From positions 930,001 to 994,000 of the forward strand of contig LVKA01000008.1 of assembly GCA_001709035.1 (NCBI GenBank): DNA of 64,000 nt, written 5' to 3'. The DNA is from Candidatus Thiodiazotropha endoloripes (GTDB lineage: Bacteria; Pseudomonadota; Gammaproteobacteria; Chromatiales; Chromatiaceae). The translations under genes and the position numbers were made by a program. Of this stretch, positions 790 through 46,829 are shown piece after piece. The notes below the pieces were generated by a model. It made no database searches, was not told the origin of the DNA, and saw nothing but the letters and a program-made list of their open reading frames with translations. How positions within the stretch are numbered: position 1 is the stretch's first letter; each line of letters begins with the position of its first letter.

Positions 790-1163
790 GCTAACTGATT
801 GTAATAGCGATAAAAATAGTTTTTTATAATGGAGTAGTATCCTAACAGCAGGCTGATCACACTTCTACCGGAGGATAGCCTGAATCTGTTGATATGCCAT
901 GAAATCTGCTGGGTTGCTGAGTTCGTCACAACAAGCTATTGGGTTAGTGTTAACAGGCCCTATTTGGAAATAATAGACCCGGCGAGCCACGCCTCAAGCA
1001 AGGGCTGATTTGAAGCCCCGAGCAGGATTTGCTCTGTCACATAATGAATGGCATGAGATAATTGCGGAACGCCATTGTTGCTTTCAACTCGCGGCCGTAG
1101 ACTGCTCAAGATAAACGATCAATAGTCAACCGTCGGGCTGTTGACCAACAGACAGGAATTTCA
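790..1163. other. Intergenic region between grxC and pepN
   Basis: This divergent spacer should hold the promoters of grxC (reverse) and pepN (forward). It contains a degenerate copy of the dispersed hairpin repeat (931-961) and a short inverted repeat GTCAAC-N9-GTTGAC just upstream of pepN. No convincing small gene was seen. Confidence 0.5.
931..961. repeat. Dispersed hairpin repeat, degenerate copy A
   Basis: Bases 937-961 match the repeat core (ATTGG-TTAGTGTTAAC and the right arm AGGCCCT) with one change in the loop. The left arm is degraded (ACAAGCT in place of AGGGCCT), so the stem cannot form fully. It has the same orientation as the copies at 8653, 17255, 45127 and 46435. Confidence 0.75.
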
Positions 1164-3812
1164 ATGCGAACAGATAACGCCAAGTCCATCTATCTCAAAG
1201 ACTATCAGCCACCACACTTTCTGGTTGATCAGGTCTCCCTGGAGTTCGATCTGCAGCAGGAGAGGACATTGGTAACCAGTCACCTGAAGATGCGACGCAA
1301 TCCTGCCTCGACTGAGCAAAACCCGGAACTGGTGCTGGATGGTGAGAAGTTGAAACTCCTGCGCCTCGCCATTGATGACCAAGCGTTGAACGAGGCGGCC
1401 TATCAGCTTGATGATCGCACTCTGACCATTGCTGACGTTAAACAGCAATTCACCCTGTCGACCCAGGTAGAGATCAGGCCACAAGAGAATACCGCACTGG
1501 AAGGGCTCTATCGGTCGGGAAAGATGTACTGTACCCAGTGTGAGGCGGAAGGATTCAGGCGGATCACCTATTTTCCCGACCGACCCGATGTGATGGCCAG
1601 CTTCGAAACAACCATCATGGCCGATAAAGCGGCCTATCCGGTACTCCTCTCCAACGGTAACTGTGTCCATCAGCAGGATCTGCCGGAGGGGCGCCATCTG
1701 GTTCGTTGGGAGGATCCCTTTCCAAAACCCTGTTATCTGTTTGCCTTGGTTGCCGGCGATCTGAGGTTTCAGCAGGACAGCTATACCACCGGTTCAGGCC
1801 GTCAGGTCGATCTGCGTATCTATGTGGAACCGGAAAACATCGATAAGTGCGACCATGCAATGGTTTCGTTAAAACATGCCATGGCCTGGGATGAGGAGCA
1901 GTATGGCCGGGAGTACGATCTCGATATCTTCATGATCGTCGCTGTCAACGATTTCAACATGGGGGCGATGGAGAACAAGGGACTGAATATCTTTAATTCG
2001 AAATACGTGCTTGCCCGTCCCGATACGGCCACAGACAGTGATTTTCAACATATCGAGGGGGTCATCGCCCATGAGTATTTTCATAACTGGACCGGCAACC
2101 GCATCACCTGCCGGGATTGGTTTCAGCTCAGTTTGAAAGAGGGGTTGACCGTCTTCCGGGATCAGGAGTTTTCCGCCGACATGGGTTCCCGTGGGGTAAA
2201 ACGGATTGAGGATGTGCGGCTGCTGCGCAGCCACCAGTTTGCCGAGGATGCCGGGCCGATGGCCCATCCGGTGCGCCCGGAGAGCTACATCGAGATCAAC
2301 AACTTCTATACCGTCACGGTCTATGAAAAAGGTGCGGAAGTGGTCAGGATGCAGGCCAATCTATTGGGTGCCGAAACCTATCGCAAGGCAACGGATCTCT
2401 ATTTTGAGAGGCACGACGGTGAGGCGGTGACAACCGATGATTTCGTCAGATGCATGGAGGATGCGAGCGAGCGGGATCTGAGCCAGTTTCGTCTCTGGTA
2501 CAGCCAATCCGGTACACCTCAGGTTAGGGTGTCGACAAGTTACGACGAGCAGCAGGGGATACTGGAAATTACATTCAGCCAAACGACACCGGAAACCCCG
2601 GGACAGAAACAGAAACAACCCTTTCACATACCCATCGCACTGGCGCTGTTGGACAGTCAGGGAGAGTTGCTGCCGCTAAAGACCAGTGCGGCTGCAACTG
2701 GCGCGTCCAGGGAGCAGGTGTTGGAGCTGACCGAAGCGACGCAGACTTTTGCCTTCCATGATCTTGTGCAACAGCCGGTGCCTTCGATCCTACGGGGTTT
2801 CTCTGCCCCGGTTAAGCTGGAGTATGACTACAGCGACGATCAGCTGATGTTCCTCATGGCAAGGGAGTCGGATGACTTTAACCGTTGGGATGCCGCACAG
2901 ACGCTGGCCAGACGTACCTTGTTGAAACTGGTTGCAGCCTGTCAACAGGGCCTGCCGCTGGCATTGCCGGGGGGATTCGTTGAGGCGTATCGTCTGGCGC
3001 TGACCGATCAGCAGGCCGACAAGGCGCTGTTGAGTGAATTGCTGAGTCTGCCTTCGGAATCGAACACCGGTGATCAGATGACGCAGGTGGATGTGGAGGC
3101 GGTACATCAGGCCCGCCAATGGCTGAAGCGGGCCCTGGCAGAAGCGTTGCGGGATGATTTTGCAGCTGTCTATGAACAGAATCAGTCAGATGCTTATGAG
3201 ATTACCTCCGCGTCGATCGGACAAAGACGACTGAAAAACCTTGCCCTGAATTATCTGATGAGTCTCGAAGCGCCACAGATCGACCGACTCTGCATGGCTC
3301 AGTTTGAAACAGCCGATAACATGACCGATGTGATGGCGGCTCTGCATGGGTTGGTCAATCGCGATATCCCGGAGCGGGATCGAGCGTTGAGCGATTTTGA
3401 AGCCAAGTGGCGGAAGGATCCCTTGGTCATGGATAAGTGGTTCGCGGTTCAGGCCGGCTCCAATCTGCCCGGAACCCTCTCCGGAGTGAAGGCGTTGATG
3501 GAACATCCGGCCTTTTCAATCCGCAATCCCAATAAGGTACGCAGTCTGATCGGTGCTTTCTGCTCGACCAATCTTTTTGCCTTTCATGCGGCCGATGGTT
3601 CGGGTTATGAGTTTCTCACCGATCAGGTGATCACTTTGGACACCCTGAATCCACAGATCGCTGCCCGCCTGCTGCGTATCATGAGTCGCTGGCGACGTTA
3701 TGATGAATCACGCCAGCAATTGATGCGAAAAGCGTTTGAGCGGGTATTGGCGCAAACGGATATCTCTAAGGATGTGTTTGAGATCGCCAGTAAAAGTGTT
3801 GCCGAGGAGTAG
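1164..3812 (+). CDS. pepN: Aminopeptidase N (M1 family zinc metallopeptidase)
   Basis: This 882-residue protein has the standard length of gammaproteobacterial PepN and removes N-terminal residues from peptides in the cytoplasm. The substrate-anchoring GAMEN motif is at about residues 267-271. The zinc motif HEYFH is at about 303-307, with the third zinc ligand Glu about 19 residues later (LKEGLTVFRDQEF). The long helical C-terminal domain typical of the family follows. The ATG start gives MRTDNAKSIYLKDYQPP, which matches the family N-terminus. It appears to be a single-gene unit, and nothing looks degraded. Confidence 0.97.
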   Translation: MRTDNAKSIYLKDYQPPHFLVDQVSLEFDLQQERTLVTSHLKMRRNPASTEQNPELVLDGEKLKLLRLAIDDQALNEAAYQLDDRTLTIADVKQQFTLSTQVEIRPQENTALEGLYRSGKMYCTQCEAEGFRRITYFPDRPDVMASFETTIMADKAAYPVLLSNGNCVHQQDLPEGRHLVRWEDPFPKPCYLFALVAGDLRFQQDSYTTGSGRQVDLRIYVEPENIDKCDHAMVSLKHAMAWDEEQYGREYDLDIFMIVAVNDFNMGAMENKGLNIFNSKYVLARPDTATDSDFQHIEGVIAHEYFHNWTGNRITCRDWFQLSLKEGLTVFRDQEFSADMGSRGVKRIEDVRLLRSHQFAEDAGPMAHPVRPESYIEINNFYTVTVYEKGAEVVRMQANLLGAETYRKATDLYFERHDGEAVTTDDFVRCMEDASERDLSQFRLWYSQSGTPQVRVSTSYDEQQGILEITFSQTTPETPGQKQKQPFHIPIALALLDSQGELLPLKTSAAATGASREQVLELTEATQTFAFHDLVQQPVPSILRGFSAPVKLEYDYSDDQLMFLMARESDDFNRWDAAQTLARRTLLKLVAACQQGLPLALPGGFVEAYRLALTDQQADKALLSELLSLPSESNTGDQMTQVDVEAVHQARQWLKRALAEALRDDFAAVYEQNQSDAYEITSASIGQRRLKNLALNYLMSLEAPQIDRLCMAQFETADNMTDVMAALHGLVNRDIPERDRALSDFEAKWRKDPLVMDKWFAVQAGSNLPGTLSGVKALMEHPAFSIRNPNKVRSLIGAFCSTNLFAFHAADGSGYEFLTDQVITLDTLNPQIAARLLRIMSRWRRYDESRQQLMRKAFERVLAQTDISKDVFEIASKSVAEE

Positions 3813-4111
3813 TCTCAGGCGCTCCGGCAGACGCAGGGCTCAGTCCCCCTCAGCCGGTTATGAGCCATTTGATTCCAGGCAATCTTTACGACGCTATCGA
3901 CCCGGTGGACTTCTGTCGGTATTACTGCAGATTTTCCGTTTTGTTGAACGGATAGAACCAGGTTGAGTCGGGTTCCAGCAGCCGGTTTGATTGCTCAATA
4001 TCAATACCAAGCCGGAATTTCTCGTCTATGATCAATCCTATAGCTGATTTGACATTTGTTTCACAAGGGCAGGTCAGTTAATCTTTATGGTTTGGCAATA
4101 GAGACAATAAT
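3813..4111. other. Intergenic region upstream of the CHAD gene
   Basis: No gene is apparent. A TTGACA hexamer at 4049-4054 could be a -35 element for the CHAD-parA operon, but no matching -10 stands out. No clear rho-independent terminator was seen after pepN. Confidence 0.35.
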
Positions 4112-5665
4112 ATGGCCTTACACCCGATATCCTACCTGTTACCGGACGATTTCGATCTGCAGCAGTTGAAGAGTAGCTTCAAGGAATCCCATGGTTTACG
4201 GGAAGAGGTGCCCTCCAAAGTGAAACTGACTTATTACGACAGTTTCGACTGGAGAGTCTGGAATGCGGGTGGTGAGCTACACGAGGAGCAGGGTAGCCTC
4301 AACCGGCTCTGCTGGCACTCTATTAAAGGCCGTAAGGAACCACTCGTCCAGGTGATCGATCAATCTCCCGGGTTTGCCAAAGATCTGCCTGCCGGTGCTC
4401 TGGCCGATCAGCTGGCATCCGTACTTGAAATGCGTGTCTTGCAACCCAAGGTCCATGTGATACAGCAGCAGCAGACACTGGCGCTGCTCGATTCTGAAGA
4501 GAAGACCGTGGTGAGAGTGGTGCTGGAGCAGAACAGCTATGCCTCCATTGACGGCAAGCAGTCGGGTCGGTTGGAAGGCCGCATTGTGTTGAAGCCGCTG
4601 AAGGGCTATCTCAGCTATTTCGAGAAGATCGTCGAATACCTGAAGGCGATGAAGCTGCGCAACTGTGGGCAGAGCCTCTACCAGGATGCACTGCAGGGTG
4701 CCGGTATCAAGCCGGGAGACTACAGCTCCAAGTTGAATTATCGACTGGATCCTTATGCCAGCGCAGACAGCGCGGCCAGACAGATCCTGTTGGATCTGCT
4801 GAATACCCTGGAGGCCAACGTTGCCGGGACCAAAGCGGATCTCGACAGTGAGTTTCTTCACGACCTACGGGTTGCCACCCGGCGTACCCGCTCTGCGATG
4901 AGCCAGATCAAAGGGGTTTTTGATCCCCAGCAGCTTGAGCCATTCAAGCGGGGATTCGGCTGGATCGGCCAGGTGACCGGGCCGACCCGTGATCTGGATG
5001 TCTATCTGTTGAAGTATGATCAGTATCGGGCGAGCCTGCCTGAAGCACTGCAGGGGGATCTCGATCCTTTCTACAGCTATCTGTTGAATCACCATAAAAC
5101 AGAACAGGCAAAACTGGTCAGGAAGCTCAACTCTCCCCATTTCCGCAAACTGCTCAAAACCTGGCGGGAGTGGCTTGAAGAGAGCAAAGTCGATCTGGAG
5201 AATGCCCCTAGCGCGAACAAAGCCACCGCCAAATTGGCGGACAAGCGGATCAGTAAACTCTATGCGCGGGTCTTGCAGGATGGCTTGGCGATCGCGCCGG
5301 ACTCACCAGCCGAGATGTTGCATGATCTGCGCAAGGATTGTAAGAAGCTGCGCTATATGATGGAGTTTTTTCAGAGTCTCTATCCCAAGCCGGCCATTCG
5401 GGAGTTGATCAAGGCGCTTAAGGTGATCCTCGATAATCTGGGAGAGTTTCAGGACCTGGAAGTCCAGGCACACTCACTCGAGGATTTTGGCAGCGAAATG
5501 CTCAAAGAGGGGGCGCCGGCCAGTGCGTTGATGGCGATGGGGGTACTGGTGGGACGCCTGTTTGAAAGGCAGGCAAACGCTCGAGAGGAGTTTGCCAATC
5601 TGTTTGCCGCCTTCAGCAGCGACGGGAATCAAAAGGCCTTTCGAAAACTGTTTGGAGGGGCTTGA
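4112..5665 (+). CDS. CYTH-like and CHAD-domain protein, putative polyphosphate-granule protein
   Basis: This 517-residue protein has an N-terminal region resembling a CYTH-type (triphosphate tunnel) fold at roughly residues 1-200. A C-terminal CHAD domain (about 220-510) carries conserved His and basic motifs such as FLHDLRVATRRTRS and MLHDLRKDCKKLRYM. CHAD domains are conserved-histidine alpha-helical domains, and CHAD proteins have been shown to attach to polyphosphate granules in Ralstonia. The stop codon overlaps the ATG of the ParA-like gene by one base (TGATG), so the two should be translated together. Whether the CYTH part is catalytic cannot be judged here. Confidence 0.85.
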   Translation: MALHPISYLLPDDFDLQQLKSSFKESHGLREEVPSKVKLTYYDSFDWRVWNAGGELHEEQGSLNRLCWHSIKGRKEPLVQVIDQSPGFAKDLPAGALADQLASVLEMRVLQPKVHVIQQQQTLALLDSEEKTVVRVVLEQNSYASIDGKQSGRLEGRIVLKPLKGYLSYFEKIVEYLKAMKLRNCGQSLYQDALQGAGIKPGDYSSKLNYRLDPYASADSAARQILLDLLNTLEANVAGTKADLDSEFLHDLRVATRRTRSAMSQIKGVFDPQQLEPFKRGFGWIGQVTGPTRDLDVYLLKYDQYRASLPEALQGDLDPFYSYLLNHHKTEQAKLVRKLNSPHFRKLLKTWREWLEESKVDLENAPSANKATAKLADKRISKLYARVLQDGLAIAPDSPAEMLHDLRKDCKKLRYMMEFFQSLYPKPAIRELIKALKVILDNLGEFQDLEVQAHSLEDFGSEMLKEGAPASALMAMGVLVGRLFERQANAREEFANLFAAFSSDGNQKAFRKLFGGA

Positions 5666-6408
5666 TGCATATTCTCGGTGTTTACAATATCAAAGGTGGT
5701 GTGGGCAAGACGGCCACCGCAGTCAATCTGGCCCATCTGGCCGCCACTGAAGGCTATCGTACTTTGATCTGGGACCTGGATCCTCAGGCCGCCGCCACCT
5801 ACTATTTTCGCATCAAACCCAAAGTCAAAGGCAGTAACAAACGTCTGATCAAAGGCAAGCTTGATCTCGATGAAGTGGTCAAAGCGACCGACTTCGAAAA
5901 TCTGGATATGCTTCCGGCAGACTTCTCCTATCGGAATATGGATCTGCGGCTGGAAGAGGCGAAGAATCCGACCAAGCAGTTACTGAAACTGTTGCGACCA
6001 CTGTCGCAAGCCTACGACTACGTTTTCCTCGACTGCCCGCCCAGTATCTCTCTGGTATCAGAGAATATCTTTCGAGCGGCAGAGGGATTGCTGTTGCCCT
6101 TGATCCCCACAACCCTGTCGCTGCGCACCTACCAGCAACTGCTCGATTTTCTGGAAGGTCATCGGATCACGGGATTGGAACTGATGCCTTTCTTCTCCAT
6201 GGTCGACCGACGCAAACGAATGCATCTGGATGTGATGAAAAACCTGCCTGACGAGCATGGAGAGTTGTTGAAGGCACAGATACCCTATGCCAGTGATGTG
6301 GAAAAAATGGGTATCCACCGCATGCCGGTCCAGGCATTCGCACCGAAAAGCATTGCCGCCAGCTGTTATCAGGCCCTGTGGCTGGAGATGCAGCGTCGGC
6401 TGGGTTAG
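5665..6408 (+). CDS. ParA/MinD-family ATPase coupled to the CHAD protein
   Basis: This 247-residue P-loop ATPase starts MHILGVYNIKGGVGKTATA, giving the deviant Walker A motif KGGVGKT at residues 10-16. WDLDPQAAATYYF follows, and a Walker B-like VFLDCPPS lies in the middle. The family positions plasmids, chromosomes, carboxysomes or other cargo by ATP-dependent surface gradients. No parB-like gene is adjacent. The only partner is the CHAD gene, whose stop overlaps this start by one base, so a cargo bound by CHAD (polyphosphate granules) is a reasonable inference. The ATG at 5665 is preferred over the TTG at 5662 because of that overlap. Confidence 0.88.
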   Translation: MHILGVYNIKGGVGKTATAVNLAHLAATEGYRTLIWDLDPQAAATYYFRIKPKVKGSNKRLIKGKLDLDEVVKATDFENLDMLPADFSYRNMDLRLEEAKNPTKQLLKLLRPLSQAYDYVFLDCPPSISLVSENIFRAAEGLLLPLIPTTLSLRTYQQLLDFLEGHRITGLELMPFFSMVDRRKRMHLDVMKNLPDEHGELLKAQIPYASDVEKMGIHRMPVQAFAPKSIAASCYQALWLEMQRRLG

Positions 6409-6504
6409 GCCGGCAGCTGTGTCTCACCTTCGCAGCTGCTGGGCCACGCGGTAAATAAGGTAACGATCAGTTGGTCTCCCTTCGGGCCGGCCCACTAGTC
6501 TTCA

Positions 6505-6536
6505 CTAGGGCCTGCTAAACGAATCCAAACGACCCT
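6505..6536. repeat. Dispersed hairpin repeat, degenerate inverted copy
   Basis: This reads CTAGGGCCTG, a diverged loop containing GAATCCAA, then GACCCT. It matches the reverse complement of the consensus with several substitutions and one missing base. It lies between the ParA-like gene and yadG. Confidence 0.6.
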
Positions 6537-6685
6537 GAAAAGCGCAAATCAATCCATGCGACAGATTGGATGGTTATTTCTGCGCCGTAAGGTTGCAATT
6601 TGCGGTGACTGCCCCCATTAAAGCTGGACGAAAAGGGGTATGATACTCCTCCGCTTGGCGTACTGTGTCTGTAGGACCGAAAACA

Positions 6686-7618
6686 TTGTCTGCACTGGTA
6701 ATCGAAAATCTTCACAAGACCTACCGTAACGGTTTTGAGGCATTGAAAGGAATCAGCCTGAATGTGGCTGAAGGGGATTTTTTCGCCCTGCTGGGCCCCA
6801 ACGGAGCGGGTAAATCCACAGCAATCAGTATTATCGCTTCGTTGACTAACAAAACCGCCGGACAGGTCAGTATCTATGGCAAGGATCTGGATCGGCAGAA
6901 GAACGAAGCCAAATCGATGATTGGGCTGGTTCCCCAGGAATTCAACTTCAATATGTGGGAGCCGGTGGTTGAGATCCTGGTGAATCAGGCCGGCTACTAT
7001 GGCATTCCCAGAAATGCAGCCTTTCAGCGGGCTGAAGAGAGTTTGCGTCAACTCGATCTGTGGGATAAACGGCATACCCAGGCACGTTGGTTGTCTGGTG
7101 GTATGAAACGTCGGCTGATGATTGCCAGGGCGTTGGTGCATCGCCCCAAGCTGCTGATTCTGGATGAGCCCACGGCCGGTGTCGATATCGAGATTCGCCG
7201 TGCCATGTGGCAATTCATGAAGCAGATCAACAGTCAGGGTACAACCATTATCCTCACCACCCACTACCTGGAAGAGGCGGAAAGTCTGTGTCGTAATATT
7301 GCCATTATCGATCACGGCAGGATTGTCGAGCAGACCAGTATGTCCCATCTGCTCAGTCAGCTGAATACCGAACATTTCGTGCTTGATATCAGTAAGCCGC
7401 TGACTATGGCGCCAGAATTGCCGGGCTATAATCTGCAGCTGGTCGGTGATAAAACCGTTGAAGTCACGGTGCAGCGTGAGCAGAGTATGAACAGCCTGTT
7501 CGAATCCCTGACTCAGCAAGGCATAGCGGTCATGAGTATGCGCAATAAGCAGAATCGACTCGAACAGTTGTTTATCGATCTGGTGGCTCAGTCTAAAAGC
7601 GAGGAGCAGAGCTCATGA
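6686..7618 (+). CDS. yadG: ABC transporter ATP-binding protein, YadG type
   Basis: This is a cytoplasmic ATPase subunit of an ABC-2 type exporter of about 310 residues. It shows Walker A (GPNGAGKST), the Q-loop (VPQEFNFN), the signature LSGGMKRR, Walker B (LLILDEPTAGVD) and the switch His (TTHYLEEAE). Sequence and length match E. coli YadG closely, but the substrate of that system is unknown. Two starts are possible. GTG at 6665 lacks an obvious Shine-Dalgarno site. TTG at 6686 has GTAGGA upstream and gives MSALVIENLHKTY, which aligns with the YadG N-terminus, so it is chosen. The stop overlaps yadH by four bases (ATGA). Confidence 0.92.
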   Translation: MSALVIENLHKTYRNGFEALKGISLNVAEGDFFALLGPNGAGKSTAISIIASLTNKTAGQVSIYGKDLDRQKNEAKSMIGLVPQEFNFNMWEPVVEILVNQAGYYGIPRNAAFQRAEESLRQLDLWDKRHTQARWLSGGMKRRLMIARALVHRPKLLILDEPTAGVDIEIRRAMWQFMKQINSQGTTIILTTHYLEEAESLCRNIAIIDHGRIVEQTSMSHLLSQLNTEHFVLDISKPLTMAPELPGYNLQLVGDKTVEVTVQREQSMNSLFESLTQQGIAVMSMRNKQNRLEQLFIDLVAQSKSEEQSS

Positions 7619-8391
7619 GCTCAGGCCATGTAAAGCGTATCGCGTATCAGACCATTGTCACCAAAGAGGTATTGAGGTTTGCCCGGATCTGGGTGCAGAC
7701 TATTCTGCCGCCGGCCATTACCACCACGCTCTATTTTATTATTTTCGGTAAACTGATTGGTGAGCGTATCGGAATGATGGAAGGCTACCGCTATATCGAG
7801 TTCATCGTTCCCGGACTGATCCTGATGTCGGTCATACAGAACTCCTATGCCAATGTGGTCTCCTCGTTTTTCAGTACCAAGCTTCAGCACTACATTGAAG
7901 AGCTGTTGATCGCACCGGTGCCGAATTGGATTGTATTGGCCGGTTATGTAACCGGAGGCATGGCCAGGGGGTTGATCGTGGGCACGGTGGTAACCGGGAT
8001 CTCACTGTTTTTCACCGACTTGACGATCAACAGTTACAGCTTGACCCTACTGGTATTCGTACTGACTTCAATCCTGTTCTCCCTGGCCGGATTCATCAAT
8101 GCAGTCTACGCCAAGAGTTTTGATGATATCGCCATCGTCCCCACTTTTGTATTGACACCATTGACCTATCTTGGGGGCGTGTTCTATTCGATACAGCTTC
8201 TGCCCGAGTTCTGGCAGCAGGTTTCCCTGGCCAACCCGGTCCTCTACATGATCAACACCTTCCGCTATGGACTGCTGGGGGTATCGGATATCGATGTGCG
8301 GATCGCGCTGGTCATTATCGTAGCCTTCATTGTCGTGCTGACATGGTACAGCTTGAGGCTATTGTCCAGAGGCGTAGGTATCAAGGAATGA
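7615..8391 (+). CDS. yadH: ABC-2 type transporter permease, YadH type
   Basis: This 258-residue inner-membrane protein has about six hydrophobic segments and the ABC-2 permease motifs FTPxTYLGG-like (LTPLTYLGGVFYS) and ELLIAPVP. It pairs with the ATPase just upstream through a four-base ATGA overlap, so the two form one export unit. Sequence and length match YadH. The cargo is unknown; lipid or surface-polymer export is a family-level guess only. Confidence 0.92.
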   Translation: MSSGHVKRIAYQTIVTKEVLRFARIWVQTILPPAITTTLYFIIFGKLIGERIGMMEGYRYIEFIVPGLILMSVIQNSYANVVSSFFSTKLQHYIEELLIAPVPNWIVLAGYVTGGMARGLIVGTVVTGISLFFTDLTINSYSLTLLVFVLTSILFSLAGFINAVYAKSFDDIAIVPTFVLTPLTYLGGVFYSIQLLPEFWQQVSLANPVLYMINTFRYGLLGVSDIDVRIALVIIVAFIVVLTWYSLRLLSRGVGIKE

Positions 8392-8506
8392 CAAGCTTAC
8401 CAGGTAAATTGATTGACATGGGTAAACCCCCCCGGCAGTGCCGGGAGACTAACATAGGTTTTACCCTGACAGCAGTCTGAGCATTTCTCAGGCTGTTCGT
8501 TATGAC

Positions 8507-8576
8507 CACGTAGGACACGAAGGTTGGTGTTTCTAATGCGACGAGTTGTATGGTCCCTTCGTGCACTTCGTGGTAA
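8507..8576. repeat. Inverted repeat with 19-bp arms
   Basis: The arms 8507-8525 (ACCACGTAGGACACGAAGG) and 8558-8576 are reverse complements except for three positions, and they are separated by 32 bases. The sequence is of the CACGAAG type that recurs in intergenic regions of many proteobacteria, so it is probably a small repeated extragenic element. Confidence 0.55.
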
Positions 8577-8652
8577 AAACGATAGCGGTTATTATTGTGC
8601 GCAGCAGTGTGATTTGACTAAAAAATGTTAAGTCGCAAGCAATGAGTTCGTT

Positions 8653-8687
8653 CTAGGGCCTATTGGATTAGTGTTAACAGGCCCTAG
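8653..8687. repeat. Dispersed hairpin repeat, perfect copy B
   Basis: CTAGGGCCT (8653-8661), the 17-base loop ATTGGATTAGTGTTAAC and AGGCCCTAG (8679-8687) form a 9-bp perfect stem. It is identical over all 35 bases to the copy at 46435-46469. Confidence 0.9.
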
Positions 8688-8844
8688 CTCGGGTGTGTTG
8701 GACCGATAGTGTTGGTTTAGGCATGTGAGCACCTTGGACGCTTTGCAAGCCCTTTGAGGGCATTACCAAATAAGTCTCCCGGCTCTGCCGGAGGTGATTT
8801 AACTCCGTACTTGAGATTGCGTTTATTTGCAGACTCAAAACACC

Positions 8845-9834: not shown

Positions 9835-9869
9835 AGACTTTCGCTACAGCTAAATTGATGGGCAGAAGC

Positions 9870-11094: not shown

Positions 11095-11282
11095 AAGAGC
11101 CTCCTCTGTGGTATATCTTATTCTCAATATGTTAGATGCTTTAGGAATGAAAACAATCTATGTGTTTTACAGGGCGATTGAAATGGGAAGTTTTCCCGGT
11201 TGCCGGGTTGCGACACGATACACTCAGTTGTCGGGTCAATATTGATAAGCTAATCCTGAGATTTTGTGTACAATTCACGGTT

Positions 11283-16534: not shown

Positions 16535-17254
16535 TCATTCTCTCCAGACTGAGAAAGGTTAGTGATTAACGTTTGTTTTATGAAACTGAATGGGTTGGTC
16601 AATTTCATTGCCCAGTTCTTTGTGACCAATTTTGGTCGGGATTTACCCCTGTACCGTTGCAATCACATTTGCCGGGTCATTGGCATCAATAAAGCTGTCG
16701 TATTGAATTATTTTGCCTTGCAAGACATGTTGTTCCCGCTATAAACAATCAACTGGATCACCCTCTGATACTGGTTCGGTATTGGGATCACTCGCGGTCA
16801 CTCATGTTTGTCAGTGGCTTAGAACAACTTTTACAGTAAAAAGTTGCGACAGCTGTGCACCATGTCCTCCAGTGTTTATTTCGTTATTGAGGATGCGTTG
16901 TTACCGGCTTCTTTTTATTTAAACGGGTTTGCCGGCAAACATTACCTTTACAGGTAGATCGTAAGAATACCGAATCAGAGAGCGATATCAAGCAAAAAAT
17001 TTTGAAATATTAGTGCTTTGTGATGTTAGCAGCATGGCACCCTTATGAAAGGCTTGGGTTTGTTCCGCTTCGGATAGGGGTTTTCCTGAATTAGAGTTAT
17101 ATGCTATCCCAACCGCGGGTTTTGCGGGGTATGGCATGGCTGACGGCTGAAACCCGGCCGATTTGGTCTGAAGATTGTCAAAAGCCTGGTTTGACGGCTG
17201 AATCCGGCCTGTTCAGGCGATGAATTGAGGCAGCGGCAGGCCGCTACGGCTTTT

Positions 17255-17285
17255 AGGGCCTATTGGATTCGTGTTAACAGGCCCT
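17255..17285. repeat. Dispersed hairpin repeat, copy C
   Basis: AGGGCCT, the loop with one change (GATTCGTG instead of GATTAGTG) and AGGCCCT form a perfect 7-bp stem. The outer CT/AG pairs of the 35-bp form are not conserved here. Confidence 0.85.
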
Positions 17286-17342
17286 GGCCGGATCCGGCTT
17301 GGAATTGGAGAAATTCCGATCGATGCGCCACAGCACGGGTGG

Positions 17343-17366
17343 TTTGGAATCGTGTTATCAGGCCCA
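17343..17366. repeat. Dispersed hairpin repeat, degenerate half copy
   Basis: TTTGGAATCGTGTTATCAGG followed by CCCA keeps the loop and right arm of the repeat with several changes. The left arm is gone. It lies 58 bases after copy C and abuts the bepA stop. Confidence 0.5.
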
Positions 17367-17373
17367 GGTCGGC

Positions 17374-21101: not shown

Positions 21102-21114
21102 GGTTAACAGGCCC
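21102..21114. repeat. Half copy of the dispersed hairpin repeat
   Basis: GGTTAACAGGCCC keeps only the right part of the repeat. It lies in the short spacer between the MoxR and VWA/DUF2201 genes. Confidence 0.45.
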
Positions 21115-28418: not shown

Positions 28419-28801
28419 GGACTTTTAACATAAAACCGATCACGCCCCCCTCTGTTACGTCAACCGGTACGAGTACTTCTGAATCACACCTCTCTGCGTT
28501 ACCCATGGTTCATTTGGACTTGCCAAACTTCTCTTCTCGTCCCTCGATTTCACTTCATCATGCGTAGCTCGCCCTATTGATAAACTTATGAGGGGATTAG
28601 TATCGATTATTGGATAAGTGGCTTTCAGATCGATCTTTCAGAAATTTCAAAACATCGTTTTTTAGTGAGAGTGATTATCAATCAATTTTTTGTTTTTAAT
28701 CTTTTTCCATCCGCAGGCAAAAGTTTTTCAAACAGGTTTGTCAGTAGCAGTTTTAAAGAGTTCGTCTTGTAATAGCAGAATTTTGTTTATTTATGATTTC
28801 T

Positions 28802-34337: not shown

Positions 34338-34361
34338 GCGTAGTCGTTATAATTTGCAGCC

Positions 34362-37498: not shown

Positions 37499-37521
37499 TC
37501 ATAGTTGATGGAGTACATCTA

Positions 37522-37731: not shown

Positions 37732-37748
37732 ACCTGCTTTCCAGCGAT

Positions 37749-38444: not shown

Positions 38445-38779
38445 TTAGTCTTTAACCTGCTGTCGTTACTTCTTTCGCTTCATCGATGATTGGACGGGTT
38501 TAGGCTCTGCGGACCCTTGGGTGTGCAACCAGTCTACAGACTTTGTCGTCAAGCCTGTTCTCTGGCATTATTGCCGACCGGTACTGCATAAATCTGTCGG
38601 GCAAAACCGGTGTAGTTCTGCATCTTACCTGCTTTATGTCCGTTTCACAGAGTCTAATCATGAAACTGATGAAATGTCCCGATCAGTACTCGAGTCGTCT
38701 TGCCTGAATTTGGCCGGAATAGGGCCAAGCATGGGCTATACCTACTCCGGCAACCGAATCATCAGGGGAGGATTCTACA
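38445..38779. other. Intergenic region
   Basis: No feature is recognised apart from the likely promoters of the flanking genes. A forward frame across it (38521-38910) has no ribosome-binding site and overlaps the better-supported small gene at 38780 in another frame. Confidence 0.35.
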
Positions 38780-38923
38780 ATGGGAAGTGGATTGTGGTTT
38801 ATAACAATTCTCAAGGAGCAGCCATGGATCGGTTTAGTAATCGGCATCCTATTGTTTTTATTGCTGTTTTGGGCGAAAAAATGGTTGGTGGCCAAACTCA
38901 TGGAAAGTGAAGGTGAGAGCTGA
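38780..38923 (+). CDS. Small single-helix membrane protein, unknown
   Basis: An ATG preceded by AGGGGAGGATTCTACA starts a 47-codon gene (MGSGLWFITILKEQPWIGLV and onward). It encodes one strong transmembrane helix (about 15-32) flanked by a Lys/Trp-rich cytoplasmic side and an acidic C-terminus (MESEGES). Good ribosome-binding site, sensible topology and an open frame support it. It lies 139 bases upstream of another membrane-protein gene on the same strand. Its function is unknown. Confidence 0.6.
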   Translation: MGSGLWFITILKEQPWIGLVIGILLFLLLFWAKKWLVAKLMESEGES

Positions 38924-39062
38924 TTGGCTTATACCGCCTACAGGTTTAAACTTAAACCCCAGTTTTTATTGGCATTAATCGCTGTATCGCCCGATGGAGA
39001 GTTGAATTTCATCAAGCAAAGATGCCACCTCAAAGGTAACAGACCAGGTATAAAGAAACTCG

Positions 39063-39617
39063 ATGAAATTTGAGATCCAAGAAGAATTGGTAAAAAAAGC
39101 CAAGATACCTCATGATGTTTTTCTGACCAATCTGATTGGTAATCACATTTTATGGTTTGTCGCTGCACTGGGTCTGGTGCGCTCCTTTTGGCAGCCACTG
39201 GCGCTGGTGCCTGTTGTCTCTTTTGTGCTGCTTTTCTATACCCTCTGGCGAGCGAAGAAGTCGAAAGATCGCGATGAGTGGTATGTCTATGCCCATTGGC
39301 AGATTGCCGCCGAGCGAAGCCGGCTGTTTATCTATATGCTGGTAGCTGTGCTGACTGTGTTTTTTCTGGGTTGGCTGGGATACACCTATATGGGTATGCA
39401 GAAAGTTGCTGTCATGGCGATGATCGGTGGTATCGGCATTCTGCCGATCATGGTAACGGTACTGATCCTGATTCTGATGGAGTCCGATGCCTTGCATCAG
39501 GCAGCTCAGGGTAAACTCGGCAAGCGGATGGTGGAAAAGTATCCTTTTCCGGATCATGTTGTGATCCTGGAGGATGACAGGGAAGAAGACGCTGAGACTG
39601 ATACCCCCGCCAATTGA
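39063..39617 (+). CDS. Four-helix inner-membrane protein, unknown
   Basis: This 184-residue protein has four predicted transmembrane segments in two pairs (about 27-43, 45-62, 88-108, 113-135). The loop between the pairs is charged (RAKKSKDRDEWYVYAHWQIAAERSR) and the tail is acidic. I do not recognise the family with certainty, although conserved hypothetical proteins of this shape occur in sulfur-oxidising gammaproteobacteria. Confidence 0.75.
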   Translation: MKFEIQEELVKKAKIPHDVFLTNLIGNHILWFVAALGLVRSFWQPLALVPVVSFVLLFYTLWRAKKSKDRDEWYVYAHWQIAAERSRLFIYMLVAVLTVFFLGWLGYTYMGMQKVAVMAMIGGIGILPIMVTVLILILMESDALHQAAQGKLGKRMVEKYPFPDHVVILEDDREEDAETDTPAN

Positions 39618-39672
39618 AGAAGCTGTCTGAACTATTTGGTCGCCAGCTTAAGAGTACCGCCAGCTGGTTGAT

Positions 39673-40050
39673 CTACTCCCCGATCATCATCAGAGCCGCT
39701 GCCACTCTTCGCCCTTCCGACATCAGAATGTTATAGGTCCGGCAGGCAGCATCGGTGGCCATCACTTCCAAACCAATCTGATGCTCCAACAGCGGGCGGA
39801 TCAGTTGGTGGTCGGGAAAATGTTGTTTTGAGCCGGTGCCCAGCACAATGATCTCCGGGGTCAGGGAGGCCAGATGGGCAAAATCCTCCTGCTTGAGCTC
39901 CTGGAATCGGGCGGGACGCCATTCAGGGATGATCCGGTCCGGCATGATGACCAGGCTCTCCCGGTATATCTTGCCACTGATGGTTATCTCGAATGCCCCG
40001 TAATTCTGGATGGCGTGACCGCTGTTGCTGTCGTCAAGTATGAATTTCAT
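39673..40050 (-). CDS. Mth938-like domain protein (DUF498 family)
   Basis: This is a 125-residue single-domain protein of the Mth938/DUF498 (NDUFAF3-like) family. It has YGAFEITISGKIYRESLVIMPD, the core PEIIVLGTGSKQHFP and GLEVMATDAACRTYNILMSEGRRV. Mitochondrial relatives help assemble respiratory complex I, but the bacterial role is not settled. It is convergent with the upstream membrane-protein gene and stands alone. Confidence 0.9.
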   Translation of the reverse strand: MKFILDDSNSGHAIQNYGAFEITISGKIYRESLVIMPDRIIPEWRPARFQELKQEDFAHLASLTPEIIVLGTGSKQHFPDHQLIRPLLEHQIGLEVMATDAACRTYNILMSEGRRVAAALMMIGE

Positions 40051-40294
40051 ACTCCGACCTTACCGCAAACAGTGTTTGCAAAAAAGTGACCTTTGTTACC
40101 GCTATGGGACAACCGCCACTCAAGGCATGAATTCCGGGGTAAACGTGTGACTTCAAAGGATGCTTGTGTACCGGAACAGAAAGAATTTCAAAAAATTGCA
40201 TCGATCACACCAGATAAGTGTTTCCTGAATTGATCTTTTATTATGGGTCAGTTAACTTTGTACCTTTTCACCTAACAGAAAAGTCGAGGTATCC

Positions 40295-41500
40295 GTGTCC
40301 ACGCAAGAGATGGAAGAGTTCCGCAGAATCAAGCGGTTGCCACCCTATGTGTTCGCTATTGTGAATGAACTCAAGGCGGCGGCGCGAGCGCGGGGCGAGG
40401 ACATCATCGATTTTGGTATGGGGAATCCGGATCAACCCACGCCACAACATATCGTGGATAAGCTTTGCGAGGTTGCAAACCGTAAAGATACTCACCGTTA
40501 CTCCATGTCGAAAGGCATACCCCGGCTACGTCGGGCGATGAGTAACTGGTACAAAAGTCGCTACCAGGTCGATCTCGATCCCGAGACTCAGGTGATCGCC
40601 ACCATCGGTTCCAAAGAGGGCCTGGCTCATCTGGCGCTGGCCTGCATGGGACCGGGGGATTCGGTACTGGTCCCCAATCCGGCCTATCCCATACATCCTT
40701 ACGGTTTCATCATATCCGGCGCCGATGTGCGTCATGTACCAATGGTGCCCGGTGTCGATTTCTTCGATGAACTGGTCAGAGCGATCAAGGACTCCTGGCC
40801 AAGACCGAAAATGCTGGTGTTGAATTTTCCCGGTAATCCGACCACCCAATGTGTCGAGCTGGACTTCTTCGAGAAGATCGTAGAGATCGCCAAGGAGTAC
40901 AATATCTGGGTGGTGCATGATCTGGCCTATGCGGATATCGTCTTCGATGGCTATGTGGCGCCCTCGATTCTGCAGGTACCTGGGGCCGATGAAATCGCGG
41001 TGGAGTTCTTCTCCCTGTCGAAAAGCTACAACATGCCGGGTTGGCGGGTCGGTTTCATGTCAGGAAACAAGACTCTTGTGGCGGCGCTGGCACGCATCAA
41101 GTCCTATCTGGACTATGGAACCTTTACACCGATTCAGGTTGCTGCCATTGCGGCGCTGGAAGGTCCCCAGGATGTGGTACGGGAGATCTGCAGTATGTAT
41201 CAGAGCCGTCGGGATGTGTTGTGCGACGGTCTGAACAATATCGGCTGGCATGTAGAAAAACCGAAAGCAACCATGTTTGTCTGGGCGCCGATTCCTGAGC
41301 CCTATCGTGCCATGGGTTCCCTTGAATTTTCCAAGAAGCTGTTGAGCGAAGCCAAGGTTGCTGTGTCACCGGGTGTCGGATTCGGTGAGCATGGTGATGA
41401 TCATGTCCGGTTTGGTTTGATTGAAAATGAACACAGAACCCGCCAGGCGGTGCGGGGTATTCGCGATATGTTCCGTAAAGACGGACTGATCGAATCTTGA
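40295..41500 (+). CDS. alaC: Alanine-synthesising aminotransferase (AlaC type)
   Basis: This 401-residue PLP-dependent class I aminotransferase has the PLP lysine in [12 protein letters not shown] (about residue 240), the motif [11 protein letters not shown] and [13 protein letters not shown]. It matches AlaC, which makes alanine from pyruvate and glutamate. It starts at GTG 40295 with CGAGGT upstream. It lies 25 bases before hom, an order (alaC-hom-thrC) seen in many beta- and gammaproteobacteria, so the three probably share a transcript for aspartate-family amino acids. Confidence 0.94.
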
Positions 41501-41525
41501 GCAATCTACTGTAGGAGTAATTACT

Positions 41526-42839
41526 GTGAATCCAGTTAAAGTTGGTTTGTTGGGCCTTGGCACGGTTGGAGGCGGTACGCTGAATGTCCTGACCCGCAAT
41601 GCCGATGAGATTGCCCGTCGTGCTGGTCGCGGTATCCAGATAACCCATGCAGCGGCCAAGGCTTATGATCCCAGCAAATTGTCCGGTCTGGATCAGGTTG
41701 AGATCAGTGATGATGCCTTTGCGGTGGTGGACAATCCTGAAATTGAAATCATCATTGAACTGATTGGCGGCTATTCACCCGCACGCGAATTGGTATTGAA
41801 AGCGATTGAAAACGGTAAACATGTGGTTACCGCGAATAAGGCGTTGATCGCCATGCATGGCAATGAAATATTCGCAGCGGCACAGAAGCATGGGGTGATG
41901 GTGGCCTTTGAAGCCGCTGTGGCTGGTGGTATTCCGATTATCAAAGCGGTTCGTGAAGGGTTGGCGGCGAATCGTATCGAATGGATCGCCGGTATTATCA
42001 ACGGCACAGGAAACTTCATTCTTACCGAAATGCGCGATAAGGGGCGAGAGTTCTCCGACGTGCTCAAAGAGGCGCAGGCATTAGGCTATGCGGAAGCGGA
42101 CCCCACCTTCGATGTGGAAGGCATCGATGCCGCTCACAAACTGACGATTCTGGGCTCAATCGCTTTCGGCATTCCTTTGCAGTTTGAAAAAACCTATACC
42201 GAAGGCATTACCAAAATCGAACCCCAGGATGTGGAGTATGCCAACGACTTTGGTTACCGCATCAAACATCTTGGGGTTACCCGTAAGACCGAGAAGGGTA
42301 TCGAGATGAGAGTCCATCCCACCATGATTCCCCACCGGCGTTTGATTGCCAATGTGGATGGGGTGATGAATGCGGTATTGGTCAATGGAGATGCTGTTGG
42401 GCCAACACTCTATTACGGCGCTGGAGCGGGATCCGAACCGACTGCATCTGCGGTGCTGGCCGATGTGGTGGATGTGGTGCGGGCACTGACTACCGACTCA
42501 GAGAACCGGGTCCCCCACCTGGCATTTCAACCAGGAGAGCTGGTCGATCTTCCGATCCTGCCGATCGAAGAGGTCGAAACAGCCTACTACCTGAGAATGC
42601 AGGTTGAGGATAAACCGGGCGTGGTCGCCAGAATTGCAACCATCCTGGCGGATTCCCAGATCAGTATTGAAGCGATTCATCAGAAAGAGCCTGCAGAAGG
42701 TGACAGTACCGTACCCCTGGTGATGATCACCCAGACCGTCGTGGAGAAGCGCCTGAATGATGCCCTGGCTGCCATTGAACAGCTGGGTAGCGTCTCAGGA
42801 CAGATCATGCGGATCAGGATTGAGCGACTCGATGGCTAG
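41526..42839 (+). CDS. hom: Homoserine dehydrogenase
   Basis: This 437-residue enzyme reduces aspartate semialdehyde to homoserine in threonine and methionine synthesis. It shows the Rossmann motif GLGTVGGGTL, VTANKALIAMHG, the catalytic region GIINGTGNFIL and EADPTFDVEG, plus a C-terminal ACT domain (about 350-430) for feedback control. The GTG start has GTAGGAG upstream. It is the stand-alone form and is not fused to aspartokinase. Confidence 0.97.
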   Translation: MNPVKVGLLGLGTVGGGTLNVLTRNADEIARRAGRGIQITHAAAKAYDPSKLSGLDQVEISDDAFAVVDNPEIEIIIELIGGYSPARELVLKAIENGKHVVTANKALIAMHGNEIFAAAQKHGVMVAFEAAVAGGIPIIKAVREGLAANRIEWIAGIINGTGNFILTEMRDKGREFSDVLKEAQALGYAEADPTFDVEGIDAAHKLTILGSIAFGIPLQFEKTYTEGITKIEPQDVEYANDFGYRIKHLGVTRKTEKGIEMRVHPTMIPHRRLIANVDGVMNAVLVNGDAVGPTLYYGAGAGSEPTASAVLADVVDVVRALTTDSENRVPHLAFQPGELVDLPILPIEEVETAYYLRMQVEDKPGVVARIATILADSQISIEAIHQKEPAEGDSTVPLVMITQTVVEKRLNDALAAIEQLGSVSGQIMRIRIERLDG

Positions 42840-42936
42840 TTGTCGATCGATTCAGCAGTAAGTTTCTGACAGGGGGGGCTGCGAAAATATCAGGCCCCAT
42901 GAGATAAAGAAAAAGATTTTTTGAGGTTTAAATATC

Positions 42937-44079
42937 ATGTCATTCCGTCCCCGATATACTGGATTGATCGACCGCTACCGTGACCGACTGCCTGTGCACG
43001 ATGATACCCGGATCATCAGTCTGGGAGAGGGTAATACGCCACTGATACGCCTGCACAATATTCCCTCACAACTGGGCAAGGATGTGGACATCTACGTAAA
43101 GTATGAAGGTCTGAATCCAACCGGTTCATTCAAGGACCGGGGTATGACCATGGCGGTCACCAAAGCGGTGGAAGAGGGCAGTAAAGCGATTATCTGTGCC
43201 TCCACCGGCAACACCTCCGCGGCCGCGGCAGCCTACGCGGCACGAGCCGGAATTACCGCCTTCGTGCTGATCCCCGATGGCAAGATTGCGATGGGAAAGC
43301 TGGCTCAGGCGATGATGTACGGCGCCATAACCATCCAGATCAAGGGCAACTTTGATGATGGTATGCAACTAGTCAAGGATGTGGCTAATCATGCTCCGGT
43401 AACGATTGTTAATTCGATCAATCCCTATCGTCTGCAGGGGCAGAAGACCGCAGCCTTCGAGATTGTCGAGGAGTTGGGGCATGCGCCCGATTTTCACTGT
43501 CTGCCGGTAGGCAATGCAGGCAACATCACCGCTCACTGGATAGGCTACTGTGAGTACAGTTGCACCAGTGGAGAGAAAGTCACGGATGCCTGTGCCTACT
43601 GTGGTGGTCAGTGTAAATTTGCCGGTGGCGCAATTACCGGTAAACGACCAAAAATGGTCGGCTATCAGGCCTCGGGTTCCGCCCCATTCATGCGTGGTGG
43701 ACCGGTAAAAGATCCTGAGACCGTAGCTACGGCGATTCGCATCGGCAATCCTCAGTCCTGGAATCAGGCCTGGAAAGTCCAGCAGGAGTCTGGTGGCTGG
43801 TTTGACGAGTGCAGCGATGAGGAGATTCTGGGGGCACAAAAGCTGTTGGCAGAAAATGAAGGGGTATTTTGCGAGCCCGCTTCGGCCACATCACTGGCTG
43901 GTGCTATGCGCGATATCAAATCCGGCAAGATCCCTGAAGGCTCGAGTATTGTCTGTACCCTGACCGGGAATGGCCTGAAAGATCCGGATACCGCGATACA
44001 GCAGTCAACCTCACCGGTAATGACCATTGATGCCGAGCTGGAAGCGGTAAAACACTCGATTCTGGACAACATGGTTTGA
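42937..44079 (+). CDS. thrC: Threonine synthase with a cysteine-rich insert
   Basis: This 380-residue PLP enzyme converts O-phosphohomoserine to threonine. The PLP lysine is in [11 protein letters not shown] (about residue 62), and it has [17 protein letters not shown] and [13 protein letters not shown]. Five cysteines lie close together at about residues 205, 209, 219, 222 and 226, just after the phosphate-binding loop, looking like a small metal-binding or disulfide insert. The length is of the short threonine synthase class. It is the last gene of alaC-hom-thrC. Confidence 0.95.
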
Positions 44080-44112
44080 TGACCGAGTAATCCTCCTTGT
44101 TGAGCGGATGCC

Positions 44113-45150
44113 GTGAATATGGGGAGACAGATCGATCTGTTACTGCCGGGCCTTCATTGGGATACGGCGCTAAAACAGCTTAATGATCAGGACTATCAGC
44201 CAAAAAACCTGGAGCGGGTGCTCAGTAAGGCAAAGTTAGTCGCTGCGCCCGGCGTAGATTTGACGACAACGCTGTTCAGTCTGTTTGGGGTTACTGTGGT
44301 TGCCGATCGTGATCTTCCTTCCGGCGCCGTCACAGCATTTACACCGGATCGGCGAACAGACGGGGATTGTTGGGCTTTGGCAACCCCTGTCCATCTGCTG
44401 GCAGATCGTGACAGGCTGATTTTGATCAGATTGGCTCCCCAATCCATCGAGAGTGATTATGCCCATCGGCTGATCAGACGATTCAATTCCCATTTCGAAT
44501 CAGAGGGGCTTTCACTCGTAGAGGTGGCTCAGGGGCAGTGGTGTATGAAGCTGAGCGCTCTGCCGGAAATAACAACCTCGGATATCGAGTCGGTTGCAGG
44601 GCGGCATATTGAAAATTTCATGCCGGCAGGTCCTGATGGCGCTTATTGGCGGGGGCTTCTGAATGAAATACAGATGCTGTTCTATCAGGAGGAGATGAGT
44701 CAACAAAGGATGTCTCAGGGAGACGCCTGTGTGAATGGGCTTTGGCTATCCGGATTTGGTGTTTGCCCTGAAATAATTAACAGGTATTCCGCCTTGTTTG
44801 GTTCACACCCACTGCTCTCCGGGCTGGCCAGATTGAGCAATTTGCCGGTCAGTGATCTACCCGACGAGTTTGCAGAGGCAACCGCCGAAGATGGCAATAT
44901 TGCGATCCTTTTCACTGACCTCTACGAGGCTGAACTCAATGCCGATACCGGCGATTGGGCAAGGGCCTTGAGTGAGACTGAGCAAAAGCTGTGCGGCTTA
45001 CTGGAAATTGTTGATTTAGAGAAGGATCAGCTCAGTATCTATACTTGCAAGGGAACTCGATTTGAGGTGCGGAATAGGAACTCGATACTGGACCTCTTTA
45101 AAGGCAAGAAATCACTATTTCAAATACTAGGGCCTATTGGATTAGTGTAA
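44113..45150 (+). CDS. RpfE-like (COG4255-type) protein of unknown function
   Basis: This 345-residue cytoplasmic protein has the motifs TPVHLLADRDRLILI, GRHIENFMPAGPDGAYWRGLLNEIQMLFY and VNGLWLSGFG. These match proteins annotated as RpfE-type or phosphoglycerate-mutase-like regulators in proteobacteria, with unknown biochemistry. The GTG at 44113 or the ATG at 44119 may be used. Its last eight codons (LGPIGLV and stop) lie inside a copy of the dispersed hairpin repeat. In other copies the matching frame would read on, so the repeat replaced the native C-terminus. Confidence 0.72.
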   Translation: MNMGRQIDLLLPGLHWDTALKQLNDQDYQPKNLERVLSKAKLVAAPGVDLTTTLFSLFGVTVVADRDLPSGAVTAFTPDRRTDGDCWALATPVHLLADRDRLILIRLAPQSIESDYAHRLIRRFNSHFESEGLSLVEVAQGQWCMKLSALPEITTSDIESVAGRHIENFMPAGPDGAYWRGLLNEIQMLFYQEEMSQQRMSQGDACVNGLWLSGFGVCPEIINRYSALFGSHPLLSGLARLSNLPVSDLPDEFAEATAEDGNIAILFTDLYEAELNADTGDWARALSETEQKLCGLLEIVDLEKDQLSIYTCKGTRFEVRNRNSILDLFKGKKSLFQILGPIGLV

Positions 45151-45161
45151 ACAGGCCCTAG
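45127..45161. repeat. Dispersed hairpin repeat, copy D
   Basis: CTAGGGCCT, a 17-base loop with one base changed (GTGTAAAC instead of GTGTTAAC) and AGGCCCTAG form a 9-bp perfect stem. The changed base creates the TAA at 45148-45150 that ends the RpfE-like gene. Confidence 0.9.
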
Positions 45162-45363
45162 GGAGAGGCGAGTGCTGATCGGGAGTGGTGTTTCTGAAGC
45201 CTATGAAGATTGTAAATAGCAATCTGCACTCAACCTGGTTAGATCATTAACAGTGAGTTGTAATCAGTGGTCGTTGTGGACGGCTGACGGAAACACCAAA
45301 ATGCAGCAACGAGTGACTTAAAATGAGTTATCTCCAGGTCAGCTGTTTAGCAGAGTGGTTTTG

Positions 45364-46829
45364 CTTACTTGTGGACTGATCTTGACCTTAGTATATGGGT
45401 TGCTGAAAACAGCCTGTAATCCCATGGGTTGATGTTATTACCCCCTACCGTACTATCTGCTTGACCGTAGGTGGCGCAAGCGCCGGCATGAATTGCGGAA
45501 AAGCTTCGGGCCGATATTACTGCTGTAGCTTGTCATCCATTCGGTGGTCTGGCTGTTGTCTGATAACGCTCAGATCCAGTTTGAATCCCAGGTGATGCTG
45601 ATCATGATACTGAGTGCCAGCGCGGTAGCCCTGTTTGGCATCAAGCGTACAGCAAGAATGGTTTTGCCTATCCTGGTATTGATCAGTGCACCCTCAGTTT
45701 GGTCTGTACTTCCTCAGCCATTACAAGTACCAATGACAGTATTTGTTACTGAATGTTGCACTTTACTGGGCATGCCTGATTTCAATAATCCTCTTTTATG
45801 ATGATCCCGGAAGGAGTGTTTGAAGTGGGGGTGCCTGCGGTAGTCTGAGTGTCGGATCACCGCAGTAACCCTTGCAATGAGTCACTCACTCCTCTCCCAC
45901 TATTCGCGCCGACATGCAGTTTTAATCTGTTGCTGGCGTCAGGCGTCACGATTAACTCAAATAGTATTCATATCGACATTGTTGTGCTTTCAGGTAACTA
46001 CACAGATATGACAGCCAGTCTGCTGAATGATCAGTTCTGGCTTGGTTGGGTTGTGTTTGTACTCTGCACAGCAGCTTTTATGTACGCCGCTTTGAGGTGT
46101 GAAAAGAGGCTCAAGGCAGAACAGAATCGTCTTGTGGTCGAGTCAGGTAAGGTTTCTGTAATAAAGTTTTACTACAATAAACTAAGCTTTATTGCAAGTG
46201 TGTTATTGGTATCCGCCAGTGCCGGTCTGATATATAGTGTGATTCCTATGAATCGCGATGGAATGCGTGGAAACCATGATTTTGACTTCAGCTTCAGTTG
46301 AATAGAACTCACAGTGGTGGTGGCAGGTGAAAGCTGGAATCCAGCCCGGGTCAATGCGGATATTGAAAAATGCGCGGCATACCAGGGTGCCGGTATCAAT
46401 GCAGCGTTAATACCACCTATCGGTTATGCGGAAGCTAGGGCCTATTGGATTAGTGTTAACAGGCCCTAGGAAAGAAGCGGTCAACGATCGTGGTCAGGCT
46501 TATAATAGGAATGGCTGGATCAGCAGTGGACGTGTTAATCGGGTGATCAATCTTTCAGCTGGAGTATAATCTCGGTATTGGAAGAGAAGATCGTTGATAG
46601 TAAGAGAAATGTGCGCATTATATGGCGATGGTAGTACATAGGAGGTAGGGTCTCATCGAGCAAACTGTACGGTATTTTTGGTACACTGAAATGCCGTCAT
46701 GGTGCAGCTGGGATAGTGAGCTCTACAGATAAAACAGGTGATAGTGAATTGAAACGTAGAGGGATGCAGAGATTCACTAATTTGGTAGCTGATAAGATAG
46801 AGAAGCACTATTCAGCACAGAAAAACTGA
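45364..46829 (+). pseudogene. Decayed XrtA exosortase fused to EpsI domain
   Basis: Read across frames, the region follows an exosortase. RRWRKRRHEL is followed by an in-frame TAG, then VVWLLSDNAQIQFES and a helix ending PSVWSVLPQPLQ, then a frame change to IPEGVFEVG. The catalytic-cysteine region is split between frames (an ACGS-like stretch against a TGA at 45846). INSNSIHIDIVVLSGNYTDM and DQFWLGWVVF follow, where the usual Arg and His appear as His and Gln. EpsI-like pieces follow (SWNPARVNADIE, KLYGIFGTLK and a tail to TGA 46827). A hairpin repeat lies inside. Boundaries are approximate. The gene is clearly inactive. Confidence 0.68.
46435..46469. repeat. Dispersed hairpin repeat, perfect copy E
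   Basis: The 35 bases are identical to 8653-8687. It interrupts the EpsI-like part of the exosortase pseudogene: the likely frame before it (frame of GYAEA) differs from the one after it (frame of EAVNDRGQ) by one base. This agrees with insertion into a once-continuous gene. Confidence 0.9.

Follow-up and report, generated by a model that had tools for sequence, protein, structure and literature searches.

A dispersed 35-bp hairpin in Candidatus Thiodiazotropha endoloripes as a likely replication-polarised deletion scar of an IS5-type miniature transposon

The stretch of DNA analysed here (64,000 nucleotides, referred to as the window) carries several near-identical copies of a 35-bp hairpin, raising the question of whether this hairpin moves by itself, serves a function in its own right, or is the remainder of something larger. 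We find that it is most likely a scar left by deletion of a ~265-bp element during DNA copying, rather than an independently mobile unit. Our overall reading, to which we assign a probability of about 80%, is that a miniature transposon (MITE) spread by an IS5-family transposase is reduced by host replication slippage at its end repeats, giving rise to solo hairpins whose orientation follows replication.

Copies in the window and in related genomes

As described in an earlier sequence-only reading of this locus, the window has two identical copies (8653-8687 and 46435-46469) and a third, at 45127-45161, with one base changed. Both identical copies match the consensus exactly, the former with TA at each edge. 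A fourth copy, placed by that reading near 17255-17285, spans 17253-17287 and has three differences, with the outer TA changed to TG. Fold prediction reproduces the 9-bp stem that had been proposed, and all four copies, together with a truncated one at 935-957, lie on the + strand, confirming the single orientation already remarked upon. The 35-mer was not recovered, at zero to three mismatches, from 100 shuffles of the window, compared with four copies in the window itself. Rfam searches returned no matches in the window, and none in four loci at E values up to 0.5.

Empty orthologous sites, which the same reading had suggested seeking in relatives, do exist: the solos at 45127 and 46435 are both absent from the corresponding sites of four relatives. 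The former overlaps the 3' end of the open reading frame at 44113-45150, and the stop codon of this frame comes from the solo, an insertion that is missing in four relatives.

Across the genome of origin, the 35-mer occurs at 43 places within three mismatches (29 forward, 14 reverse; control 0), its 29-base core at 119 places and its 22-base half at 205 places, the latter two within two mismatches. By any of these measures, the copy number falls within the tens to hundreds that had been anticipated, and not below ten. The core is present in 22 of the 56 genomes searched, the genome of origin included: 21 of the 22 genomes of the genus (it is missing from G001) and one from another genus of the same family. 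In named assemblies, exact cores were found in 26 stretches, belonging to Candidatus Thiodiazotropha, Sedimenticola, and other gammaproteobacterial assemblies.

A miniature element with IS5-like ends

From its sequence context, the 35-bp repeat is one end of a larger MITE of ~265 bp, with the layout TA-GGGCCTGTTAACAC...GTGTTAACAGGCCC-TA, two internal hairpins, and a length too small to encode a transposase. Its terminal inverted repeat reads TTGGATT[A/C]GTGTTAACAGGCCC. In the solo hairpin, the loop and one arm together correspond to the terminal inverted repeat, and the other arm repeats its outermost bases. The loop is thus indeed as conserved as the stem, because it is a transposon end; the suggestion that it is kept for a protein or RNA that reads the hairpin loop is not borne out.

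Inverted pairs of this kind number 32 in stretches of the genome of origin, 22 of them 263-285 bp long and 10 of them 62-173 bp, and inverted pairs with equal, fixed spacing are found in G002, G010, and G032. A related full element (L035) is predicted to fold as DNA with -91.7 kcal/mol (z -14) into a three-way junction, in which the two ends form a stem from which two hairpin arms extend. By eye, one internal arm of this element (L035:6911-7177) seems to be a homologue of the other, with the order inverted.

A profile built from nine full-length elements (nhmmer) assigns several weaker window copies to this MITE. A truncated right end, consisting of the terminal repeat and a few internal bases, lies at 916-962 (+ strand, E 2.7e-05) and includes the 935-957 remnant of the 35-bp copy; degenerate right ends lie at 17327-17365 (+ strand, E 0.002) and, inverted, at 6506-6578 (- strand, E 0.0049). 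Of the degenerate copies that had been listed, those at 931, 17343, and 6505 are therefore MITE ends by this profile, and those at 21102 and 23526 had no match to it at E values up to 1. The profile also finds a degenerate internal hairpin module with unrecognisable ends at 28479-28579 (+ strand, E 1.7e-07), which is absent from the earlier list of copies.

The family occurs in three site states, as full elements, as 35-bp solos, and as empty sites. Element edges are mostly TA, occasionally with one base changed. Where a site is empty, exactly 2 bp are missing along with the element, as a target duplication predicts. Between the genome of origin and G002, such 2-bp-exact empty sites were seen in seven of nine element/empty comparisons (eight single copies and one pair), a count from which L051/L200 (gaps 55 and 17), L075/L202 (-2 and 84), and the single copy L194/L100 (40, no element called) were left out. 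Base-level reading of 19 site/genome rows, a hand-picked subset of the candidate combinations, gave nine exact empty sites, seven of them with TA; other rows were shared solos (L053, L058) or differed in other lengths (L087, L052, L051, and a second site in L106). A further exact empty state was found in G010 for site L298.

This TA duplication argues against the RAYT/REP model, and the REP-type unit that had been proposed is better described as the end of an IS5-type MITE of ~265 bp. A likeness to REP/REPIN sequences with their RAYT transposases does exist, in that both families comprise inverted doublets and singlets, and the REPIN paper likewise proposes that a doublet can become a singlet through deletion between its repeats (PMC3116915). 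The present family differs from them in its 2-bp TA duplication and its IS5-like ends. For REP/REPIN elements, we know of no target-site duplication.

Ends of the TAGGGCCTGTTAAC type flank IS5-annotated genes in three of the four plasmid records examined out of 11 listed. In these three (L239, L240, L242), the elements are ~810-830 bp long and the ends match over the first 14-18 bases, one end with one difference; the fourth (L241) has a 111-bp inverted pair without a gene. The BLAST matches of single ends are themselves weak (E 2 to 5). The N-terminus of the transposase corresponds to Pfam PF13340 (DUF4096, IS4/5 family). Within the genus, four transposase-like matches (37-54% identity) were found in 2 of 22 genomes, three in G007 and one in G013; three of these matches lie between similar ends (L283, L284, L285; one to four mismatches in 16), and one has only one end found (L286). 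The genome of origin had no match to the transposase query at E 1e-8. From these sequence relationships, we infer that the MITE was probably spread in trans by a TA-duplicating transposase of the IS5 family. It resembles known IS5-family MITEs in being short, without space for a transposase, and in having IS5-like ends and a TA duplication, and differs from them in its two internal hairpin modules and self-palindromic ends; the latter would make the element prone to leave scars.

Beyond chromosomes, the full element had no match in phage sequences, and in plasmids matched one record, a Methylophaga plasmid (72% across 47% of the full element). Among viral contigs, the 20-base end had no matches; the 16-base end occurs in 11 stretches, three of which contain ~270-bp inverted pairs with TAGGGCCTGTTAACAC ends (L231:11134-11404, L233:935-1204, and L235:365-631).

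Solo hairpins at orthologous sites

Orthologous sites capture the conversion of paired elements to solos in place. At L066/L193, a solo in the genome of origin faces a 265-bp element in G002; at L078/L191, the full element is in the genome of origin and the solo in G002; and at L113/L037, a solo in G016 corresponds to a 130-bp pair in the Ctena orbiculata symbiont. Read by eye, the joints at these sites (AGGGCCT, GCCCT, and GCCT) fall at direct repeats, one copy of which lies on the outside of one end and the second on the inside of the opposite end. At a fourth site, L088/L344, the full element of the genome of origin is represented in G002 by an 18-bp palindrome, GGGCCTGTTAACAGGCCC, and both loci have the identical changed left edge, TC. 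Since GTTAAC is contained in both ends, a joint at this word should leave precisely GGGCCTGTTAACAGGCCC. Less regular remnants are present at L070/L349, L106/L346, and L062/L398.

The scars are located between TA duplications, where they might alternatively represent excision footprints of the IS5-family transposase rather than products of replication slippage. We consider this very unlikely, as cleavage at the element ends would be expected neither to produce joints that vary in place and length (AGGGCCT, GCCCT, GCCT, GTTAAC) nor to link their orientation to replication.

Palindromes of 18 bp with TA edges (up to two mismatches) occur in all 22 genomes of the genus, at 2-18 places each (control 0), including 16 places, six of them exact, in the genome of origin. 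G001 has six such places yet no 35-bp core, and therefore not every palindrome need derive from this MITE; some may have arisen from different elements that carry these ends, or from copies joined end to end.

Once formed, solos persist across relatives. For 12 solos of G004, judged by match length with bases read at four sites, G020 has a 31-32-base insert at 11 and a scar plus a full element at one; G010 has eight solos, two sites without insert, one scar plus full element, and one uncalled site; and G014 gave just four weak partial matches. Two candidate full/solo sites were rejected, L086/L173 because the insertion points differ and L297 because the scar is kept in G004, G020, and G010. 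At this shared scar (L297, L337, and L338), a full MITE abuts one edge in G020 and the opposite edge in G010. Scars may, on the sequence arrangement, serve as targets for full MITEs.

Could the 31-bp solo instead be mobile by itself, inserting at replication forks in the form of a single-stranded hairpin that brings its TA with it? IS200/IS605-type and REP elements are thought to insert in a similar manner, and relatives do offer solo/empty site pairs: at least nine solo sites of the genome of origin (45127, 46435, L050, L054, L055, L056, L062, L071, and L079) are empty in at least one relative, so that insertion as a solo is conceivable there. The near-uniform AGGGCCT arms of the solos would also suit such a unit. 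Among the matches listed, 25 of 35 solos in the genome of origin have these arms, compared with 4 of 44 full-element inner arms (p 1e-8), and in G002 the corresponding figures, again among the matches listed, are 29 of 39 and 2 of 10. We interpret this excess as preferential loss of the elements whose repeats are best; the alternative interpretation is a separate lineage of solos. The three paired-element/solo sites and the 18-bp palindrome site speak against self-mobility, as does the match between solo variants and the full elements that share their genome. In G016, ATCGG is found in six of eight solos and in three pairs; in G004, one pair and several of the solos have a GATTGGATGAG-type variant. 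Solo variants track the full elements in the former genome and, to a lesser extent, in the latter. On balance, we regard a self-mobile solo as the chief alternative, though an improbable one, and its more specific form, a 31-bp hairpin with an IS5-type end borrowed from the MITE and an orientation locked to replication, as slightly less probable still. If true, it would perhaps be the smallest transposing unit described.

Orientation relative to replication and a slippage model

In four genomes, 86 of 95 strict solos among the matches listed are co-oriented with replication (p=7e-17, a value that assumes independence, with copies shared by descent between genomes kept in), which answers the earlier suggestion to compare orientation with replication. 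With the leading-strand sense taken as '+', the surviving end is the right-hand one. Strict solos were those with an intact inner TA and an arm at most one base from GGGCC, and GC skew was pooled over 150 kb. With skew as the guide, and among the matches listed, 27 of 34 solos agree in the genome of origin, where two of the seven discordant ones sit at a skew of +0.001 that leaves the replication direction ambiguous, and 38 of 39 agree in G002. All eight TA-bounded copies in G016 agree with skew. For G004, replication direction was taken as the side of dnaA, and 13 of 14 strict solos are concordant, after 2 of 16 copies had failed the strict rule and with one copy of uncertain side near a skew change (at 812796) scored as concordant. 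In G016, G004, and G002, skew switches from minus to plus at dnaA. The window has positive skew, and the one-way orientation of its copies on the + strand follows from this polarity. An earlier, looser count using local skew (32/13 in the genome of origin and 52/6 in G002, among the matches listed; other single copies 10:3 and 8:5, respectively) is superseded, because looser solos take in right ends of damaged full elements.

Strong polarity would also be expected of a self-mobile hairpin inserting at forks, and L066, one of the three conversions, is among the nine discordant solos and thus runs against the trend, a point in favour of that alternative.

Neighbouring gene direction does not explain the polarity. 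For the 85 of 87 solos with two neighbours among the matches listed (mechanical open reading frames of at least 120 aa), the ratio of concordant to discordant copies is 21:3 between tandem genes running along replication, 17:1 between tandem genes running against it, 29:2 between convergent genes, and 9:3 between divergent ones. These figures also bear on whether solos are functional hairpins, such as terminators or mRNA stabilisers, held under selection. The solos are mostly intergenic, with 2 of 87 inside long open frames, and 31 of 85 lie between convergent genes (both among the matches listed), as might be expected of such signals. Their polarity, however, tracks replication and not transcription, beside fork-facing genes as well (the 17:1 class), a number of orthologous sites are empty, and the repeat lacks a T-run, making a selected function the most far-fetched of the explanations considered.

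Deletion by slippage would account for both the joints and the polarity. Each end is nearly palindromic: AGGGCCT, or a variant of it, lies on the outside of one end and recurs on the inside of the opposite end, forming a direct repeat that brackets a very strong hairpin. A polymerase slipping between the AGGGCCT copies would skip the hairpin and leave the 35-bp solo, whereas a slip between the two GTTAAC words would leave the 18-bp palindrome. Such nearly precise excision could be carried out by the host, with no need for transposase. If the hairpin arises on one of the template strands as the fork passes, fork direction would set which end survives. On the lagging template, the polymerase would reach the right end first; copying of this end would free the left one, whose outer AGGGCCT, now single-stranded, could accept the slipped primer, while a jump the other way would have to land on sequence that the stem still holds paired. 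This asymmetry between a freed left landing site and a locked opposite one would predict the observed polarity. The lagging template is the preferred strand for slippage, and we place the event there tentatively; an early jump on the leading template gives an identical scar, and the polarity is compatible with either strand.

The MITE itself, its IS5-type ends, and the proposed formation of solos by nearly precise excision all belong to known kinds. In Tn10 and Tn5, nearly precise excision is a deletion between short direct repeats within the inverted repeats, leaves a fixed remnant, and is independent of transposase and RecA. The scars described here share the short-direct-repeat deletion inside inverted repeats and the fixed remnant, and differ in forming a natural, multi-species record with replication polarity rather than the outcome of a laboratory reversion assay. 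Correia and ERIC elements are likewise small bacterial MITEs close to genes, and Correia elements also target TA; we know of no sequence relationship between either and the present MITE. A dominant solo product sets the present family apart from Correia elements, for which none is described in the consulted part of a published account (PMC10969869).

In the open literature, no report of replication-polarised MITE scars was found by titles and abstract openings. Slippage at palindromes has mostly been studied using E. coli constructs. Several species carry natural deletion scars by the tens in each genome, and about nine in ten of these agree with fork direction. The strand preference of hairpin deletion would thereby become measurable in wild bacteria, and the orientation of each scar would provide a mark of fork direction at its locus. 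One class of 'REP-like' solo hairpins would, moreover, be explained as remnants and not elements.

A separate observation concerns the surroundings of the 8653 solo. The ~430 bp at 8388-8818 are replaced by 20-30 bases in five relatives, and portions of this segment have similar, dispersed counterparts in other parts of G008, G009, and G011. A second repeat family may, judging by these resemblances, be present at this position.
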